Shown piece by piece: positions 4,478 to 9,399 of a DNA stretch of 64,000 nt. The position numbers and the translations under genes were made by a program. The stretch comes from Streptomyces deccanensis. GTDB taxonomy: Bacteria > Actinomycetota > Actinomycetes > Streptomycetales > Streptomycetaceae. The DNA lies in contig NZ_CP092431.1 in the NCBI RefSeq assembly GCF_022385335.1, positions 8,370,001-8,434,000 on the forward strand. Direction: 5' to 3'. Positions within the stretch are counted from its first letter, which is position 1. Each line of letters begins with the position of its first letter. A model generated the notes under the pieces. The model saw only the letters and a program-made list of their open reading frames with translations. It did no database searches and was not told the DNA's origin.

Positions 4478-4561
4478 ACGGGTCAGGTGGAGTGTGAACG
4501 TGGCTGCCACGTTCCGGAAGCGCTCCGCCAGGGAGAGAAGCGGCGGCGGTCACCCGCCTGG

Positions 4562-4595
4562 GGAGGCGGTTCCAGCACCAGCTGGAACCGCCTCC
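4562..4595 (-). terminator. Hairpin terminator of the hydrolase operon
   Basis: A perfect 15-bp stem (GGAGGCGGTTCCAGC and its complement) with the 4-nt loop ACCA lies 3 bp beyond the stop codon of the minus-strand hydrolase that ends at 4599. Confidence 0.8.
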
Positions 4596-4598
4596 GTC

Positions 4599-5522
4599 TC
4601 ACGAGCCGGTTGAGGCCGGGACCGGGTCGAGGTGAGTGTGGAACCACGACAGCGCGGCGCCGCTGGATTCCTCGAAGTGCACCTTGTAGGCGTCGAAGTG
4701 ACCGCCGGGCAGCAGCACCAGTTCCTTCGGGGCGAGGGCTCGCTCGAAGGCGGCCAGCTGGATGTCGGCCGGGACCACCGTCTCGCCGGTCTCGACGATC
4801 ATCATGAGTGGCTTGGGCGAGACCCGGCCGATCCATACGCCCGGCTCGTACAGCCGCGCGGCCCGGCTGGAGCGCAACGTCACCGTGTTGTGCTCGCGGC
4901 CCGGGGGAACCAGGTCGTGGTAGAAGCGCACGGCGTCCGGGCTGTTGTACAGGGCCGGGTCGGTTGGATCGTCGCCGATGGAGGTCTGGTAGCGCAGTTC
5001 ACCGCCGGCGGCCAGGGCGCGTTCGTCGTCGGCCTGGGCGAGCTCGAAGGCGGCGATGCGGTCCGGCGGGACCTTGCGCTGCCACTGCTCGAATCCGCTG
5101 ATGGTGGGCACCTGCGACACCACGGCCTTGATCCGCACGTCGGTCGCGCCGAGAACGATCGCGTGACCGCCTGAGAAGCTCGAGCCCCACACTCCGATGC
5201 GGTCCTCGTCGACCTCCGGCCGGGCCTCCAGGAAGCTGATCGCGCGGCGCCAGTCCGCGATCTGACGCCAGGGGTCGACGTCGTTGCGGGGCTCGCCGTC
5301 GCTGGCGCCGAACGTGCGGTGATCGTGGACGAGCACCACGAACCCGGCGTCGGCGAACTTGCGCGCGTACGGGTCGAGGCCCATCTCCCGGTTGGCGCCG
5401 AATCCGTGCGCCATCGTGATCGCGGGGCGGGGGCCCTCGGCGTCCGGCAGGTAGAGCCAGCCGCGCAGAGTCACGCCCCCGTCCGCCGTGAACTCCACGT
5501 CGATGCGTTCTGTCATGGTCAT
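4599..5522 (-). CDS. Alpha/beta hydrolase (dienelactone-hydrolase/YcjY-like)
   Basis: A protein of 307 residues. The alpha/beta hydrolase fold is shown by A-H-G-F-G-A-N-R-E near residue 39 (oxyanion region), V-H-D-H-R-T-F-G-x-S-D-G-E, the nucleophile elbow G113-S-S115-F-S-G-G with Ser115, and a C-terminal P-G-G-H-F-D-A-Y with the likely catalytic His. The length and motifs fit the family that includes Xaa-Pro-peptidase-like and DUF1100-type hydrolases. Its start overlaps the stop of the upstream hydrolase by four bases (ATGA), so the two are translationally coupled. No signal peptide. Substrate unknown. Confidence 0.85.
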   Translation of the reverse strand: MTMTERIDVEFTADGGVTLRGWLYLPDAEGPRPAITMAHGFGANREMGLDPYARKFADAGFVVLVHDHRTFGASDGEPRNDVDPWRQIADWRRAISFLEARPEVDEDRIGVWGSSFSGGHAIVLGATDVRIKAVVSQVPTISGFEQWQRKVPPDRIAAFELAQADDERALAAGGELRYQTSIGDDPTDPALYNSPDAVRFYHDLVPPGREHNTVTLRSSRAARLYEPGVWIGRVSPKPLMMIVETGETVVPADIQLAAFERALAPKELVLLPGGHFDAYKVHFEESSGAALSWFHTHLDPVPASTGS

Positions 5523-6688
5523 TCGCCTTCCGTGAACTTGAAGTACTCGGCGGGGATGAGGCCGGCCTCGATGAGGGGTCCCCCGACCTTCGCGTTGATC
5601 TGCAGCACGGCGCCGATGGGCCGGTGGTGGATGGCGATCTCGGTGATGAGCCCTTCGTCATCACGCGTGAGGATCGTGATCCCCTTCATCTCGAAGCCGC
5701 CGAACGCGGCGGCCTCCCACTCCAGATACGTCCGCGGGCCGTCCTGCGCCTTCCGGACGAACTCGAGCCGCTCGTACACGGAGCTCACCGCGGTCATGAG
5801 GGCCTCGACGTGCTCCTTGCGCTCGACCGGCTTGGCGAGCGCGCTGGCCTCCATCCGCACGTTCGGCGAGAGCGCCAGCCCGAAGGACTCCTGGGTGCGC
5901 TGCTTGAACGCACTCGTCCAGGCCTCGGCCGGACGGTCGTCGGCGGAGTTCGACGCCTCGATGACCGAGGTGATGGCGGCGGCGACCGCCGCCGGGTTCT
6001 CGACGTGCGCCCAGTGACCCGCGCCGGCGATCGTCTGCGTGGCGGCGCCGGGGAAGCGGGGCGCGACATACGCGGAGACGATCTCTTCCGTGACGAAGGG
6101 GTCGTTCTCGCCGCGCAGGACGGTGACGCTCCCGTGGAACTTGCTGGGCTGCTGTCCGTCCGGGTGGCCGTTGTTCCATGCCGTCGCCGTGTCGGAGATC
6201 GTCGACGGGTCGACGCGCAGCGTCACTTGGGCGAGCCGGTCGTTCTCCTCGGCGGGGAACGCGGTGGCGAGCGCACTGCGGAAGGCGCGTTGCGCGTCGA
6301 GTCCGAGATCCGGTGCCTGGAAGGGGGCGATCTGCTCCGGGGGCAGGTGGGTGCCCGCCAGCGGGATCGGGTTGACCAGGACGAGCGAGCGCACCTGATC
6401 GGCCAGGCGGGCGGCGACGAGCTCGGCGATCTGACTTCCCATGCTGTGGCCGACGAGCACGACGGGGCCCTCCGTCGCGCGCACGACGGACTCGAGGTCG
6501 TCGGCCCAGCGGGCGAGCGTGAACGGCCCCTGATCTGAAGCGCGCGCACCCATGCCGGCGAGCTCGAACGCGATCGAGGGGATCGACTGCTCGTCGAGGA
6601 CGGTGCGGACGCTGTTCCAGATGGGGCCGTCGTCCAGGTATCCGTGGACGAGCACCGCGGTCGGTGCGTGCGTCGCTGGGCTGTTCAT
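5519..6688 (-). CDS. Alpha/beta hydrolase fused to a SnoaL/NTF2-like domain
   Basis: A protein of 389 residues. Residues about 10-250 are an alpha/beta hydrolase with H-G-Y near residue 15, nucleophile elbow G80-H-S82-M-G-S and a terminal G-A-G-H-W-A-H-V-E-N-P. Residues about 260-380 read as an NTF2/SnoaL-type domain, with W-x-x-A-F-x-x-R-T, P-N-V-R-M-E-A-S, an F-G-G-F-E-M-K-G-I-T-I-L strand and a final P-I-G-A-V-L-Q-I-N. Such a fusion in one chain is uncommon, while both parts occur separately in the neighbouring genes. It is first in a two-gene operon reading away from the MBL gene at 6910, with a strong palindrome between them. Substrate unknown. Confidence 0.83.
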   Translation of the reverse strand: MNSPATHAPTAVLVHGYLDDGPIWNSVRTVLDEQSIPSIAFELAGMGARASDQGPFTLARWADDLESVVRATEGPVVLVGHSMGSQIAELVAARLADQVRSLVLVNPIPLAGTHLPPEQIAPFQAPDLGLDAQRAFRSALATAFPAEENDRLAQVTLRVDPSTISDTATAWNNGHPDGQQPSKFHGSVTVLRGENDPFVTEEIVSAYVAPRFPGAATQTIAGAGHWAHVENPAAVAAAITSVIEASNSADDRPAEAWTSAFKQRTQESFGLALSPNVRMEASALAKPVERKEHVEALMTAVSSVYERLEFVRKAQDGPRTYLEWEAAAFGGFEMKGITILTRDDEGLITEIAIHHRPIGAVLQINAKVGGPLIEAGLIPAEYFKFTEGE

Positions 6689-6773
6689 CTCGTGTCTCCT
6701 TTGACGATCGCTCTCTTGCGGCGACGAACCGAAAGTCAGCGGCTCTCGAGATTCTCGGCCGACGCGAGCGCTA

Positions 6774-6804
6774 TGACGTAAGCATAGGGTCTATGCTTAC
6801 GTCA
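6774..6804. promoter_or_regulatory. Perfect 14-bp inverted repeat, probable operator
   Basis: TGACGTAAGCATAG, then GGT, then CTATGCTTACGTCA. It lies between the divergent hydrolase operon (start 6688) and the MBL gene (start 6910). A 13/14 match to one arm occurs at 8545-8558 and an 11/14 match at 8382-8395, the latter over the start of the CGNR regulator gene. The CGNR protein is therefore the best candidate ligand. Confidence 0.75.
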
Positions 6805-6909
6805 ATGTCATCGCTCGGTGAGTGGCGGAATGAGGGCTGGTCCTTCCGGCTCACTCCGCGTTCCGGCCCAGAGCGGAAGCGACCACCCGAGAATCCGAGG
6901 AGTCCACCC

Positions 6910-7758
6910 ATGACGTCGAACGCCTTGACCTACGCCGTGCACGTCGAGGACGGCATGCCGACCACCAACGCCGACGTGCCGCCCGATCAGGGGGAGCGTC
7001 GCTGGTCACCGACGTCGAGCGTCCTGATCTCGAACGGGGGAGAGTCGCTGCTGGTGGATCCGCTCTTCACGGTCGCGCAGTCAAAGGACCTGCTGCGTTG
7101 GCTCGGTGAGCGTGACGCCCCTGTGGCGAGCGTGTACGTCACGCACGGCCACGGCGACCACTGGTTCGGTCTCGGAGCCGTTCTGGAGCAGTACCCCGGC
7201 GCGCGCGCCTTCGCGCTGCCCGAGGTCGTCGAGGACATGGCCCACCAGTCCTCGCCCGAGGTTCTCAAGGCGGTCTGGCGTGCATGGTTCCCCGGCCAGC
7301 TCCCTGAGCACCTGGTGCTCGCCGAACCGCTCGCGGAGGAGGTCCTGACGGTGGGCGGGGCGGAGGTCCGTCCGGTCCGCCTGGGGCACACCGACTGCGA
7401 CAACACGACCTGCCTGCATGTTCCCGACCTGGGGCTGGTCGTCGCGGGCGACGTGATCTACAACAACGTGCACCTCATGCTCGCCCAATCGGACGCGGAC
7501 GGGCGAGCCGAGTGGCTGAGGGCTCTCGACACGGTCGAGGCGCTGGGGCCGACCGCGATCGTCGCGGGGCACAAGGATCCGGCTGCCGATGACGATCCGC
7601 GTCACATCGAGGAGACCCGACGCTACATCCTCGATTTCAACAGCGGGGTGCGTCGCACCGGCAGCACCCTCGAACTCTACGAGTACATGCTGGAGCGTCA
7701 CCCGTCCCGCATCAATCCCGGTGCGCTGTGGGGCTCCTGCCGGGCAGCCAAAGGCTGA
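6910..7758 (+). CDS. MBL-fold metallo-hydrolase
   Basis: A protein of about 282 residues with the metallo-beta-lactamase motif H79-G-H81-G-D83-H84, a G-H-T-D strand, the metal-bridging Asp in V-A-G-D-V-I-Y, and A-G-H-K where family members usually have G-H-G. The start is set by GAGGAG a few bases upstream of ATG 6910. It shares its C-terminal layout with the partial gene at the left edge and with 1706-2488. It is divergent from the hydrolase pair and probably shares the operator at 6774-6804. Substrate unknown. Confidence 0.87.
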   Translation: MTSNALTYAVHVEDGMPTTNADVPPDQGERRWSPTSSVLISNGGESLLVDPLFTVAQSKDLLRWLGERDAPVASVYVTHGHGDHWFGLGAVLEQYPGARAFALPEVVEDMAHQSSPEVLKAVWRAWFPGQLPEHLVLAEPLAEEVLTVGGAEVRPVRLGHTDCDNTTCLHVPDLGLVVAGDVIYNNVHLMLAQSDADGRAEWLRALDTVEALGPTAIVAGHKDPAADDDPRHIEETRRYILDFNSGVRRTGSTLELYEYMLERHPSRINPGALWGSCRAAKG

Positions 7759-7793
7759 GTAGTCGGAGCGACGGTCGGTCGGCCTGCGGCGCG

Positions 7794-8393
7794 CTACGCG
7801 CTCGCGGCCGCCCGACGGGCCCGCGAGGCCCGAAGGTTCACGGCGTTACCGCAGATGCGCACGTCATGCCAGGCGCCGTTGTTGGGGTTCGTGCCATCGT
7901 AGAACGCAACCGAGCAGACCCGGTTACGGCACATCTTCAAACGACGCCACGTCCCCGTCAGTTGGGCGTTCGTGATCTCGTTGAGCACGGCCGCGACGAC
8001 CCACGGGACGTCCTTGCCGCGCGGCGCCACCGAGAAGACACCATCGGCGTCGATCCGCACCTCGAGCGCGCCGCTCACCCCCTTCGGCGCGGATCGGGTC
8101 GGAGTGTCGCGCACCGCACCCGACACGGTCATCTGCAGCGACGCGCGCAGCTGTTGAAGCCGCACCAGCCCCGGTTCATCGACTTCGATCGCCGGCGCCT
8201 CCGCCCCCGTACGTCGACTCCATTCGTCCAGCGCGCCGGCGAGCCAAGACGTCGCGGAATCCGGCGTCGAAAGCAGGTCCTGAAGCGCGGGCTTGCCGGC
8301 GGCGCGGGTGTTCAAGACCTCCTGGACGAGGATGAGCGGTCCGGTGGCGAGGCGGTCGGTGTAGCGCTCGCTCGCGAGTTCAGACATAGGCAT
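7794..8393 (-). CDS. CGNR zinc-finger regulator with ABATE-type domain
   Basis: A protein of 199 residues (or 197 from the ATG at 8387). The first 140 residues fit the ABATE-like sensor domain of this family (D-x-x-L-L-S-T near the start, L-N-E-I-T near 138). The C-terminal zinc finger shows C155-x4-C160, F-Y-D, W-H176 and C181-G-N-A. The usual fourth Cys (W-C) is replaced by His and the C-G-N-R signature by C-G-N-A, so the site would be C3H. Family members act as DNA-binding regulators. A copy of the island's palindromic half-site covers its start codon, suggesting autoregulation. Confidence 0.8.
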   Translation of the reverse strand: MPMSELASERYTDRLATGPLILVQEVLNTRAAGKPALQDLLSTPDSATSWLAGALDEWSRRTGAEAPAIEVDEPGLVRLQQLRASLQMTVSGAVRDTPTRSAPKGVSGALEVRIDADGVFSVAPRGKDVPWVVAAVLNEITNAQLTGTWRRLKMCRNRVCSVAFYDGTNPNNGAWHDVRICGNAVNLRASRARRAAASA

Positions 8394-8395
8394 AG
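8382..8395 (-). promoter_or_regulatory. Half-site of the 6774 palindrome at the CGNR gene start
   Basis: AGACATAGGCATAG matches the left arm TGACGTAAGCATAG at 11 of 14 positions. It overlaps the start codons of the CGNR gene, which would suit a leaderless or autorepressed transcript. The opposite arm is not recognisable. Confidence 0.45.
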
Positions 8396-8544
8396 CTTAT
8401 TAGCTCCAGTCTTCATTGGCGAGGAGAACGGGATCGCCGCCGAGAAGGACCCTAACGGCGACGCCGTGCGTTCGACGCGCTGGCGAGTGCGCGGCACAGT
8501 GCGGTGACCGTAAGAGCGGGGGCGCTGCACTTCACGCTCAGAGG

Positions 8545-8558
8545 CTATGCCTACGTCA
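8545..8558 (+). promoter_or_regulatory. Second half-site match to the 6774 palindrome
   Basis: CTATGCCTACGTCA matches the right arm CTATGCTTACGTCA at 13 of 14 positions. It lies 150 bp upstream of the CGNR gene in otherwise gene-free sequence. No clear opposite arm. Confidence 0.45.
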
Positions 8559-8683
8559 GATGGCGCCGATCGTCGCGCACTGTCACCACGCGGGCCGACC
8601 ATGTGAAATCGCTTGAGACGTCGCGCGATGCCCGAAACGCGTGGCGGCACGCGGCGAGCGCGGTGCCGGGAAGCGCCGACGGC

Positions 8684-8824
8684 GGCCACCCGGGCACCGA
8701 ATTGGTCATCCCGCACCGTCGGCAGCGCGGCCAGACCGAACTCCCGGACTGGAAAGAGGGCCACAGTAGGTCCCACAAGCACGACCGCGCCCGGGTCGAG
8801 CACGTCTGCGCCCGCATGCTCCAA
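8684..8824 (+). pseudogene. IS5-type transposase fragment
   Basis: About 47 codons resemble the C-terminal part of IS5-group DDE transposases: D-G-G-H-P-G-T, then R-R-Q-R-G-Q-T-E-L-P-D-W-K-E-G-H-S and S-H-K-H-D-R-A-R-V-E-H-V-C-A-R-M. In intact members R-x-R-V-E-H-x-F-A-R-M contains the last catalytic Glu of the DDE triad. The frame then runs directly into integrase sequence without the usual K-x-W-x-I-L-R-D, so it is a deletion junction between two mobile-element fragments. Confidence 0.6.
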
Positions 8825-8839
8825 AATGAAAAGGGCGAG

Positions 8840-9148
8840 ATCTGGCGTCCAGCCATCGCCAAGGTCAAGTTCCCCAAGGGTGCCGGGCCCCACGCCCCAC
8901 GGCATGCCTACGCATCTCTGCCAGTAGCCGCAGGGGAGTCCGTTAAGGTCGTGTCGGAGCGGTTGGGGCGCACCAACGCCGCGATGACCCTGAACGTCTA
9001 CAGCCATCTCTTCCCTGAGTCGGAGGAACGAGCCAGGGCGGCTGTGGACCGGGCGTTCAGCGCCCTGACGGGGGAATGTGCCCTGGATGTGCCCTCTTGG
9101 TCGGAGGATCAAGAGAATGTGCAGGTCAGCGACGCCATGGGAGCATAG
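8840..9148 (+). pseudogene. Tyrosine recombinase (integrase) C-terminal fragment
   Basis: About 100 codons match the catalytic end of phage/ICE integrases: H-x-x-R-H-A-Y-A-S-L, A-A-G-E-S-V-K-V-V-x-E-R-L-G, A-A-M-T-L-N-V-Y-S-H-L-F-P-E-S-E. The H-x-x-R box and the catalytic Tyr remain. The residue that is normally His in E-R-L-G-H is Arg, and the first catalytic Arg and the whole N-terminal half are missing. It is fused in frame to the transposase fragment. It marks the right edge of the accessory segment. Confidence 0.65.
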
Positions 9149-9399
9149 TGCGATTGAGAGTGGAGTTCACGACCGAGCCCTTCGATCTCGACGAGGCCCC
9201 GGCGCACGCGCTCGTGGCGCGGGAGGTCGTCGAGGCGGCCGATCTGGACGCGGTCGACGTCGGCCCGTTCGGCAACACGGCGGAGGGGCGGGCCGACGCC
9301 GTGCTCACGGCCGTGGACGCCCTGCTGCGCCGGACCCTGGAGTCCGGCGCCACTCGGATCTCGCTCCAGGTCAACGTGATCGGGGAGGGCGGCGAGTGA
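9148..9399 (+). CDS. Small YkoF/MTH1187 (DUF77)-like protein
   Basis: A protein of 83 residues from GTG 9148, preceded by GGGAG. The pattern V-D-V-G-P-F-G-N-T-A-E-G, then A-V-D-A-L-L and a final G-A-T-R-I-S-L-Q-V-N-V-I-G resembles the small ferredoxin-like-fold family around MTH1187/YkoF, some of whose members bind thiamine. Its stop overlaps the start of the next gene (GTGA), and it opens the run of genes leading to the urate operon. Its role there is not known. The assignment rests on a short motif and is moderate. Confidence 0.65.
   Translation: MRLRVEFTTEPFDLDEAPAHALVAREVVEAADLDAVDVGPFGNTAEGRADAVLTAVDALLRRTLESGATRISLQVNVIGEGGE

Follow-up and report, generated by a model that had tools for sequence, protein, structure and literature searches.

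Which protein reads the palindrome that separates two divergent operons in this region, and to what effect? The window, meaning the whole 64,000-nucleotide stretch of DNA that was analysed, carries TGACGTAAGCATAG-GGT-CTATGCTTACGTCA at 6774-6804, an exact 14-3-14 inverted repeat of 31 bp. The letters agree with the first-pass annotation, which had described a perfect 14-bp inverted repeat between divergent hydrolase-type operons and proposed a local circuit of a CGNR protein, its own gene and both operons. The gene layout bears out the placement: two hydrolase genes run leftwards from the site (6688 to 5519 and 5522 to 4599) and an MBL-fold gene runs rightwards (6910 to 7758). From sequence comparison and one predicted model, we conclude that, very probably, regulators of a poorly understood bacterial zinc-finger family dock on the DNA at this palindrome. 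The features concerned are the following.

4599..5522, minus strand: second alpha/beta hydrolase, AXE1/S15-like, predicted target; its start overlaps the stop of the 5519..6688 gene, in the same presumed operon
5519..6688, minus strand: alpha/beta hydrolase (Pfam Abhydrolase_6), predicted target, starting 86 bp away from the palindrome
6774..6804, no strand: predicted 31-bp dyad operator (14-3-14), an exact palindrome between the divergent hydrolase and MBL genes
6910..7758, plus strand: MBL-fold hydrolase (Pfam Lactamase_B), predicted target, starting 106 bp away from the palindrome
7794..8387, minus strand: CGNR/ABATE regulator gene, with ATG 8387 preferred over 8393
8382..8412, minus strand: start-proximal dyad AGACTGGAGCTAAT-AAG-CTATGCCTATGTCT, covering the putative -10 box and start codon of the CGNR gene
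8394..8399, minus strand: putative -10 box TAAGCT (dyad positions 14-19) of a predicted leaderless CGNR transcript
8545..8558, minus strand: probable surviving arm of a decayed operator, its partner arm gone via a 45-bp deletion at 8540/8541

Both of the arm copies reported earlier are present, TGACGTAGGCATAG (13/14) at 8545-8558 on the minus strand and AGACATAGGCATAG (11/14) at 8382-8395 on the plus strand. Arm matches with up to three mismatches number four in the window against 0.84 expected, and none of 100 shuffles reached four. The suggested genome search for the 14-bp arm returned, across all 10.1 Mb and at up to one mismatch, only the two palindrome arms and the 8545 copy. Seven further places match with two mismatches, and a reversed control pattern gave four genome matches at up to two. 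The palindrome is the same or has one base changed in four orthologous loci (L051-L054), whose CGNR proteins are 89-96% identical to that of the window, and its flanks drift. The 8382 copy supplies the stronger of the two arms of a 31-bp dyad at 8382-8412; the copy that had been placed over the CGNR gene start thus belongs to a dyad spanning the putative -10 box and the start codon.

The 8545 copy has a different history. In L053 and L054 a full dyad occupies the matching place, upstream of a divergent CoA-transferase/thiolase operon that the window lacks here, and pairwise alignment with either locus opens a gap of 45 bp at 8540/8541. Homology of the window to L052-L054 stops near 8650 and to L051 at 8540. 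Since the operon is absent and the second arm was lost to the gap, the 13/14 copy probably survives as a remnant of the operator that once served a divergent operon, now lost. At this right border of the hydrolase–CGNR block, which holds the CoA-transferase/thiolase operon in some relatives, an open reading frame (8504-9148) resembles the C-terminus of a tyrosine recombinase of the integron integrase type (TIGR02249, E 1e-6, under the cut-off). Elsewhere in the window lie an AraC-type regulator gene (588-1511) and a further MBL-fold gene (1706-2488), and stretches of this AraC/MBL region are found near the CGNR block in L051, L053 or L054 too.

The candidate reader of these sites is the CGNR protein. 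Its zinc-finger domain scores 40.6 bits with PF11706, above the cut-off of 24, and its ABATE domain scores 22.8 bits with PF07336 (E 1.6e-4), slightly under the cut-off of 24.4. The profile of A1 matched no solved structure at E<=0.01; the window protein is predicted to have the two-domain fold of Jann_2411 (3h0n). Four candidate zinc ligands, C155, C160, H176 and C181, are invariant in 41/41 rows of the subfamily, their roles in zinc binding being predicted. The subfamily thus has His at the usual third zinc Cys, a CCHC variant; in the classical rows this place is mostly Cys, with one His (L168). The letters CGNR are themselves replaced, by CGNA in the window and CGN[APV] and similar in the subfamily, whose helix reads CGN[APV]..NLRA in place of CGNR.K. 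In a phylogenetic tree, the subfamily branch splits from 13 classical members with support of 100/99. The window subfamily therefore differs from the ABATE/CGNR type represented by Jann_2411 in its zinc His and in CGN[APV] for CGNR. Jann_2411 itself has CQNR (PMC2954205), so that the letters CGNR are not strict.

ABATE/CGNR proteins (PF07336/PF11706) were proposed in 2009, from one structure, to be transcription regulators (PMC2954205). That report of the Jann_2411 structure (3H0N) predicts a probable dimer, DNA binding and an ABATE domain that senses a ligand, and names LacI and TetR as analogies; the words operator and palindrom are absent from its main text. Among the papers listed by our search of the open-licence literature there was no operator study of CGNR/ABATE regulators, and the earlier remark that no operator has been defined for them holds within those papers.

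We compared the promoters beside CGNR homologues. A search of 394 genomes of the window's class gave 111 matches at E<=1e-5. Among ten close homologues outside the window's own genome (L002-L011), six have 31-bp 14-3-14 dyads upstream (L002, L006, L007, L008, L010 and L011), and two dyads per promoter were often seen in this set. A symmetric weight matrix was built from 17 sites in the window and eight loci (L032, L036-L042) and applied to 80 test loci (L051-L130), the best 80 of 278 relatives from one genome scan with the CGNR alignment, which were chosen by CGNR homology and are mutually related. Two of them, L077 and L118, were judged to be the contigs of L033 and L034, neither of which had given a training site. 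At 12 bits the matrix found 136 sites in 75/80 loci, leaving five loci without a site at that threshold; in 59 of the 80 a site lies within -450 to +5 of the CGNR start. The profile sites share the consensus TGACATAAGCAAA-N5-TTTGCTTATGTCA, symmetric and 31 bp long. Shuffled loci gave 5 matches in 950 kb, the highest at 23.7 bits, and shuffled upstream regions a mean of 0.455 loci with a maximum of three. Matrices with symmetrically permuted columns hit a mean of 7.8/80 loci (maximum 21), or 1.35 (maximum 12) when restricted to upstream regions. Over 20-64 kb of the window the matrix peaked at just 8.4 bits, and loci of other CGNR subfamilies (L012-L030, 64 kb in total) held three sites of at least 12 bits. 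After dereplication at 60% protein identity, 26 of the 29 groups have a site and 20 have one at the CGNR gene. The promoter comparison that had been suggested thus shows the dyad recurring in 75/80 loci of the subfamily, and by the same count the description of the palindrome as island-specific has to be given up.

The position of the dyad at the CGNR gene is constrained. A start-proximal set, defined as dyads of at least 12 bits starting -26 to -15 from the matched CGNR start, comprises 41 members: 40 of the 80 loci, plus the window, added by hand. All 41 carry TANNNT at positions 14-19 and ATG or GTG at positions 26-28. In 46 dyads lying -500 to -27 upstream, TANNNT at positions 14-19 occurs in three, on either strand. 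Where an upstream and a start-proximal dyad form a pair, the spacing is 50 bp in 13/24. Carried over to the window, the 41/41 geometry gives ATG 8387 as the CGNR start, more likely than ATG 8393 on the sequence, and TAAGCT at 8399-8394 as the putative -10 box. We read this as a leaderless CGNR promoter with its predicted -10 box and start codon both under the operator, and, because both elements lie within the dyad throughout the set, as autorepression. A scan of two window regions (hydrolase/MBL and CGNR) found no consensus sigma-70 promoter.

We consider it highly likely that the neighbouring CGNR protein uses the palindrome as its operator and is an autorepressed repressor of catabolic operons; binding, dimer, repression, leaderless start and ligand are all predictions from sequence. 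Dimeric, sequence-specific DNA binding is suggested by the dyad symmetry of the sites alone. A dimer of the two-domain regulator, composed of ABATE and a CCHC-variant CGNR zinc finger, would grip the two 14-bp arms. Bound to the dyad that covers the -10 box and start codon of its own leaderless transcript, the protein would shut off its own promoter, and the dyad between the divergent hydrolase and MBL genes would keep both operons off. Release of the CGNR protein would then come from a ligand, probably a pathway substrate or intermediate.

The same protein might instead own the dyad yet activate the target operons, for example when ligand-bound, and repress only itself, which we think improbable. 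The centres of many target dyads lie some 20-135 bp before the called target starts (others range from overlap to about 290 bp), and the hydrolase and MBL promoters lack a consensus, as activator-dependent promoters often do. The dyad over the -10 box and ATG in 41/41 start-proximal cases nevertheless occupies a repressor position, and the targets carry the same motif.

Because L051-L130 had been gathered by CGNR homology, a reverse test in whole genomes serves as a guard against that bias. The profile used was sequence-only, made from 45 sites hand-chosen out of 70 dereplicated ones, in both orientations. At E<=5 the window's own genome has three profile sites, all within 1 kb of its two subfamily CGNR genes. 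The palindrome, which had been a training site, is the top match (E 0.004), and the start-proximal dyad, outside the training set, is matched at 8383-8406 with E 3.4. The third site, 8357035-8357060, is no training site and lies beside the second CGNR gene. This gene (L031, G000:C1:8356342-8356920), 42% identical and of the same subfamily, is located about 13 kb left of the window; its neighbours encode an enoyl-CoA hydratase, a flavin-reductase-like protein and an aldehyde dehydrogenase, and it has operator-like sites of its own.

Across 392 Streptomyces genomes, the profile gave 28 sites in 22 genomes at E<=0.5. The E-values are rough and seem conservative: over 392 genomes this threshold would let through about 196 matches by chance, and the list, made under stricter filters, has 28. 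The CGNR subfamily (E<=1e-22) occurs in 26/392 of these genomes, including all 22 that have a site, an overlap with a hypergeometric probability of 2.7e-32 when relatedness is ignored. Within 3.3 kb of a CGNR gene lie 25 of the 28 sites; the other three, two in G674 and one in G742, are megabases away. The G674 pair (L276) stands in front of a homologue of the window MBL gene (37% identity), 5.75 Mb away from the CGNR gene, which suggests a regulon acting in trans. Four of the 26 genomes with the gene have no profile match (G225, G526, G633 and G641); in G225 (L034) a weaker site of 17.3 bits stands before an MBL gene, as scored by a matrix trained on all loci. In the 394 genomes of the class, seven sites in five genomes were found at E<=0.1, and six of the seven, some of them training sites, adjoin genes of the CGNR subfamily. 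The remaining match, in G226 (L133, near bases 1501-1531), has neighbours that look, on inspection by eye, like genes for a ROK repressor and a sugar ABC system, and its palindrome is apparently the site of another regulator. A crude consensus with up to two mismatches was not specific, matching in 8/394 genomes, only two of these at CGNR genes, and its reversed control matched in 10/394. The concern that the palindrome might be widespread in genomes lacking this CGNR gene was thus searched for directly and not borne out: 22/22 Streptomyces site genomes carry the subfamily, and G226 is the one exception elsewhere.

Other CGNR subfamilies have a related but shorter site. We took 60 genes, a part of the class list, picked by hand with a query start of at most 60. 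The exact 27-bp dyad TNACC-N17-GGTNA occurs in 30/60 of their upstream regions, with 46 sites, and in 25/54 after removal of six loci inspected earlier; shuffles gave 0.24 loci, at most two. No other spacing of TNACC and GGTNA from 3 to 29 gave more than six exact sites (range 0 to 6). In 46/46 sites the two arms have complementary letters at the free second base (A/T 25, T/A 13, G/C 8), and this base follows the helix: CGNKLKN goes with G in 6/6 loci, CGNRAKQ[QR] with A in 13/13, and CG[AS]RxKMR with T in 10/10 readable loci, one more T locus being unreadable. Since most members of each helix class come from one lineage, common ancestry alone could give this match. The other 30 of the 60 loci have no exact dyad, including CG[AS]RxKMR and CGNKLKN genes with one-mismatch dyads. 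Genes of the CGNRTKTRAYRAR type (L149, L150 and L157) may use another dyad, ACACC..GGTGT, which weak matches in L029 and L030 show on inspection by eye. Among five proteobacterial loci tried, a Pantoea plasmid (L258, 271-401) has three exact TGTAAC-N21-GTTACA dyads and a Sphingomonas plasmid (L261, 196-369) four AACC-N9-GGTT dyads before an ABATE gene, and three from Rhizobiaceae have none. We incline to the view that all ABATE/CGNR members recognise long dyads through one simple code. Under such a code, classical actinobacterial members would read TNACC-N17-GGTNA with the second base set by the helix (CGNKLKN to G, CGNRAKQ to A, CG[AS]RxKMR to T), proteobacterial members would use AACC/GGTT half-sites at other spacings, and the CCHC branch would have shifted to the 31-bp dyad.

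The helix-to-base match also bears on ownership. Since L051-L130 were picked by CGNR, co-occurrence in these loci alone would not decide whether a nearby TetR, HxlR or AraC regulator owns the dyad with CGNR a mere passenger. TetR or HxlR genes do lie near the site in L055, L079 and L068, and the window has the AraC gene at 588-1511; single-linkage clustering, however, places an HxlR cluster in 6/80 loci and two TetR clusters in 3/80 each. Ownership by such a neighbour is very unlikely, given that all 22 Streptomyces genomes with a site have the CGNR subfamily, that matches in the window's genome fall only at its two CGNR genes, and that the operator base tracks the CGNR helix in other subfamilies. 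Action in RNA (as hairpin, attenuator or terminator) or as an island recombination site, which a perfect inverted repeat and the integrase-like fragment at 8504-9148 might suggest, is scarcely credible when 4500-9200 has no Rfam match, the two scanned promoter regions have no terminator-like site, a leaderless start would leave the left arm of the start-proximal dyad untranscribed, and the site recurs at promoters in several genera.

With the CGNR protein as the favoured owner, the proposed circuit stands on comparative grounds for the protein, its own gene and both operons (a dyad in 75/80 subfamily loci, the subfamily in 22/22 dyad genomes), and the 8545 copy drops out as a decayed site. Comparison establishes the sites, their positions and the two-way association with the CGNR subfamily.

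The genes behind the dyads vary by lineage (SDR, Zn-ADH, hydrolase, MBL, thiolase), and the dyad persists. In an Arthrobacter locus (L055, CGNR 56%), the units are scattered, and dyads sit at the CGNR start as well as upstream of the hydrolase pair and of an MBL-homologous stretch; a dyad upstream of MBL homologues is also found in Micromonospora L078, L079 and L082. In other loci, the genes downstream of dyads encode an SDR, a Zn-dependent alcohol dehydrogenase, an MBL protein or a thiolase, as assigned with Pfam for representatives only. The operon in L053/L054 encodes PcaI/PcaJ-family CoA-transferase subunits, above cut-off for TIGR02429 and TIGR02428, and a thiolase matched best by 3-oxoadipyl-CoA thiolase (PcaF) models, with a score under the PcaF cut-off. 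The window hydrolase gives 44.1 bits with TIGR02427 (PcaD enol-lactonase; cut-off 255.85), the PcaD models being among many alpha/beta hydrolase models that it matches, and the window MBL protein 93 bits with NF040580 (Vmh MBL hydrolase; cut-off 430). The genes pcaD, pcaI/J and pcaF belong to the 3-oxoadipate (beta-ketoadipate) pathway. The L053/L054 operon, with its PcaI/PcaJ-family subunits and PcaF-like thiolase, resembles that pathway, whereas the hydrolase and thiolase fall below the PcaD and PcaF cut-offs and the operon is missing at this place in the window. As a guess, the pathway may run from ester or lactone hydrolysis to a 3-oxo acid, CoA transfer and thiolysis.

Local autorepressors of the TetR, MarR and LacI style are one-component regulators encoded beside their targets, with dyads at their own and target promoters. 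The CGNR protein is likewise a one-component regulator beside its predicted targets, with dyads at its own and target promoters and a presumed release by ligand; it differs in its DNA-binding fold, in the long dyad (31 or 27 bp) and in having the start codon inside the operator. An operator of fixed geometry, an embedded start codon and the match of helix to base would lead to direct assignment of targets, binding tests and a search for the ligand, and the compact repressor/operator pair may be usable in reporters. Because other actinobacteria have related sites, the family can be put to the test. If the family-wide code is true, operators and target genes would become predictable for many uncharacterised regulators.
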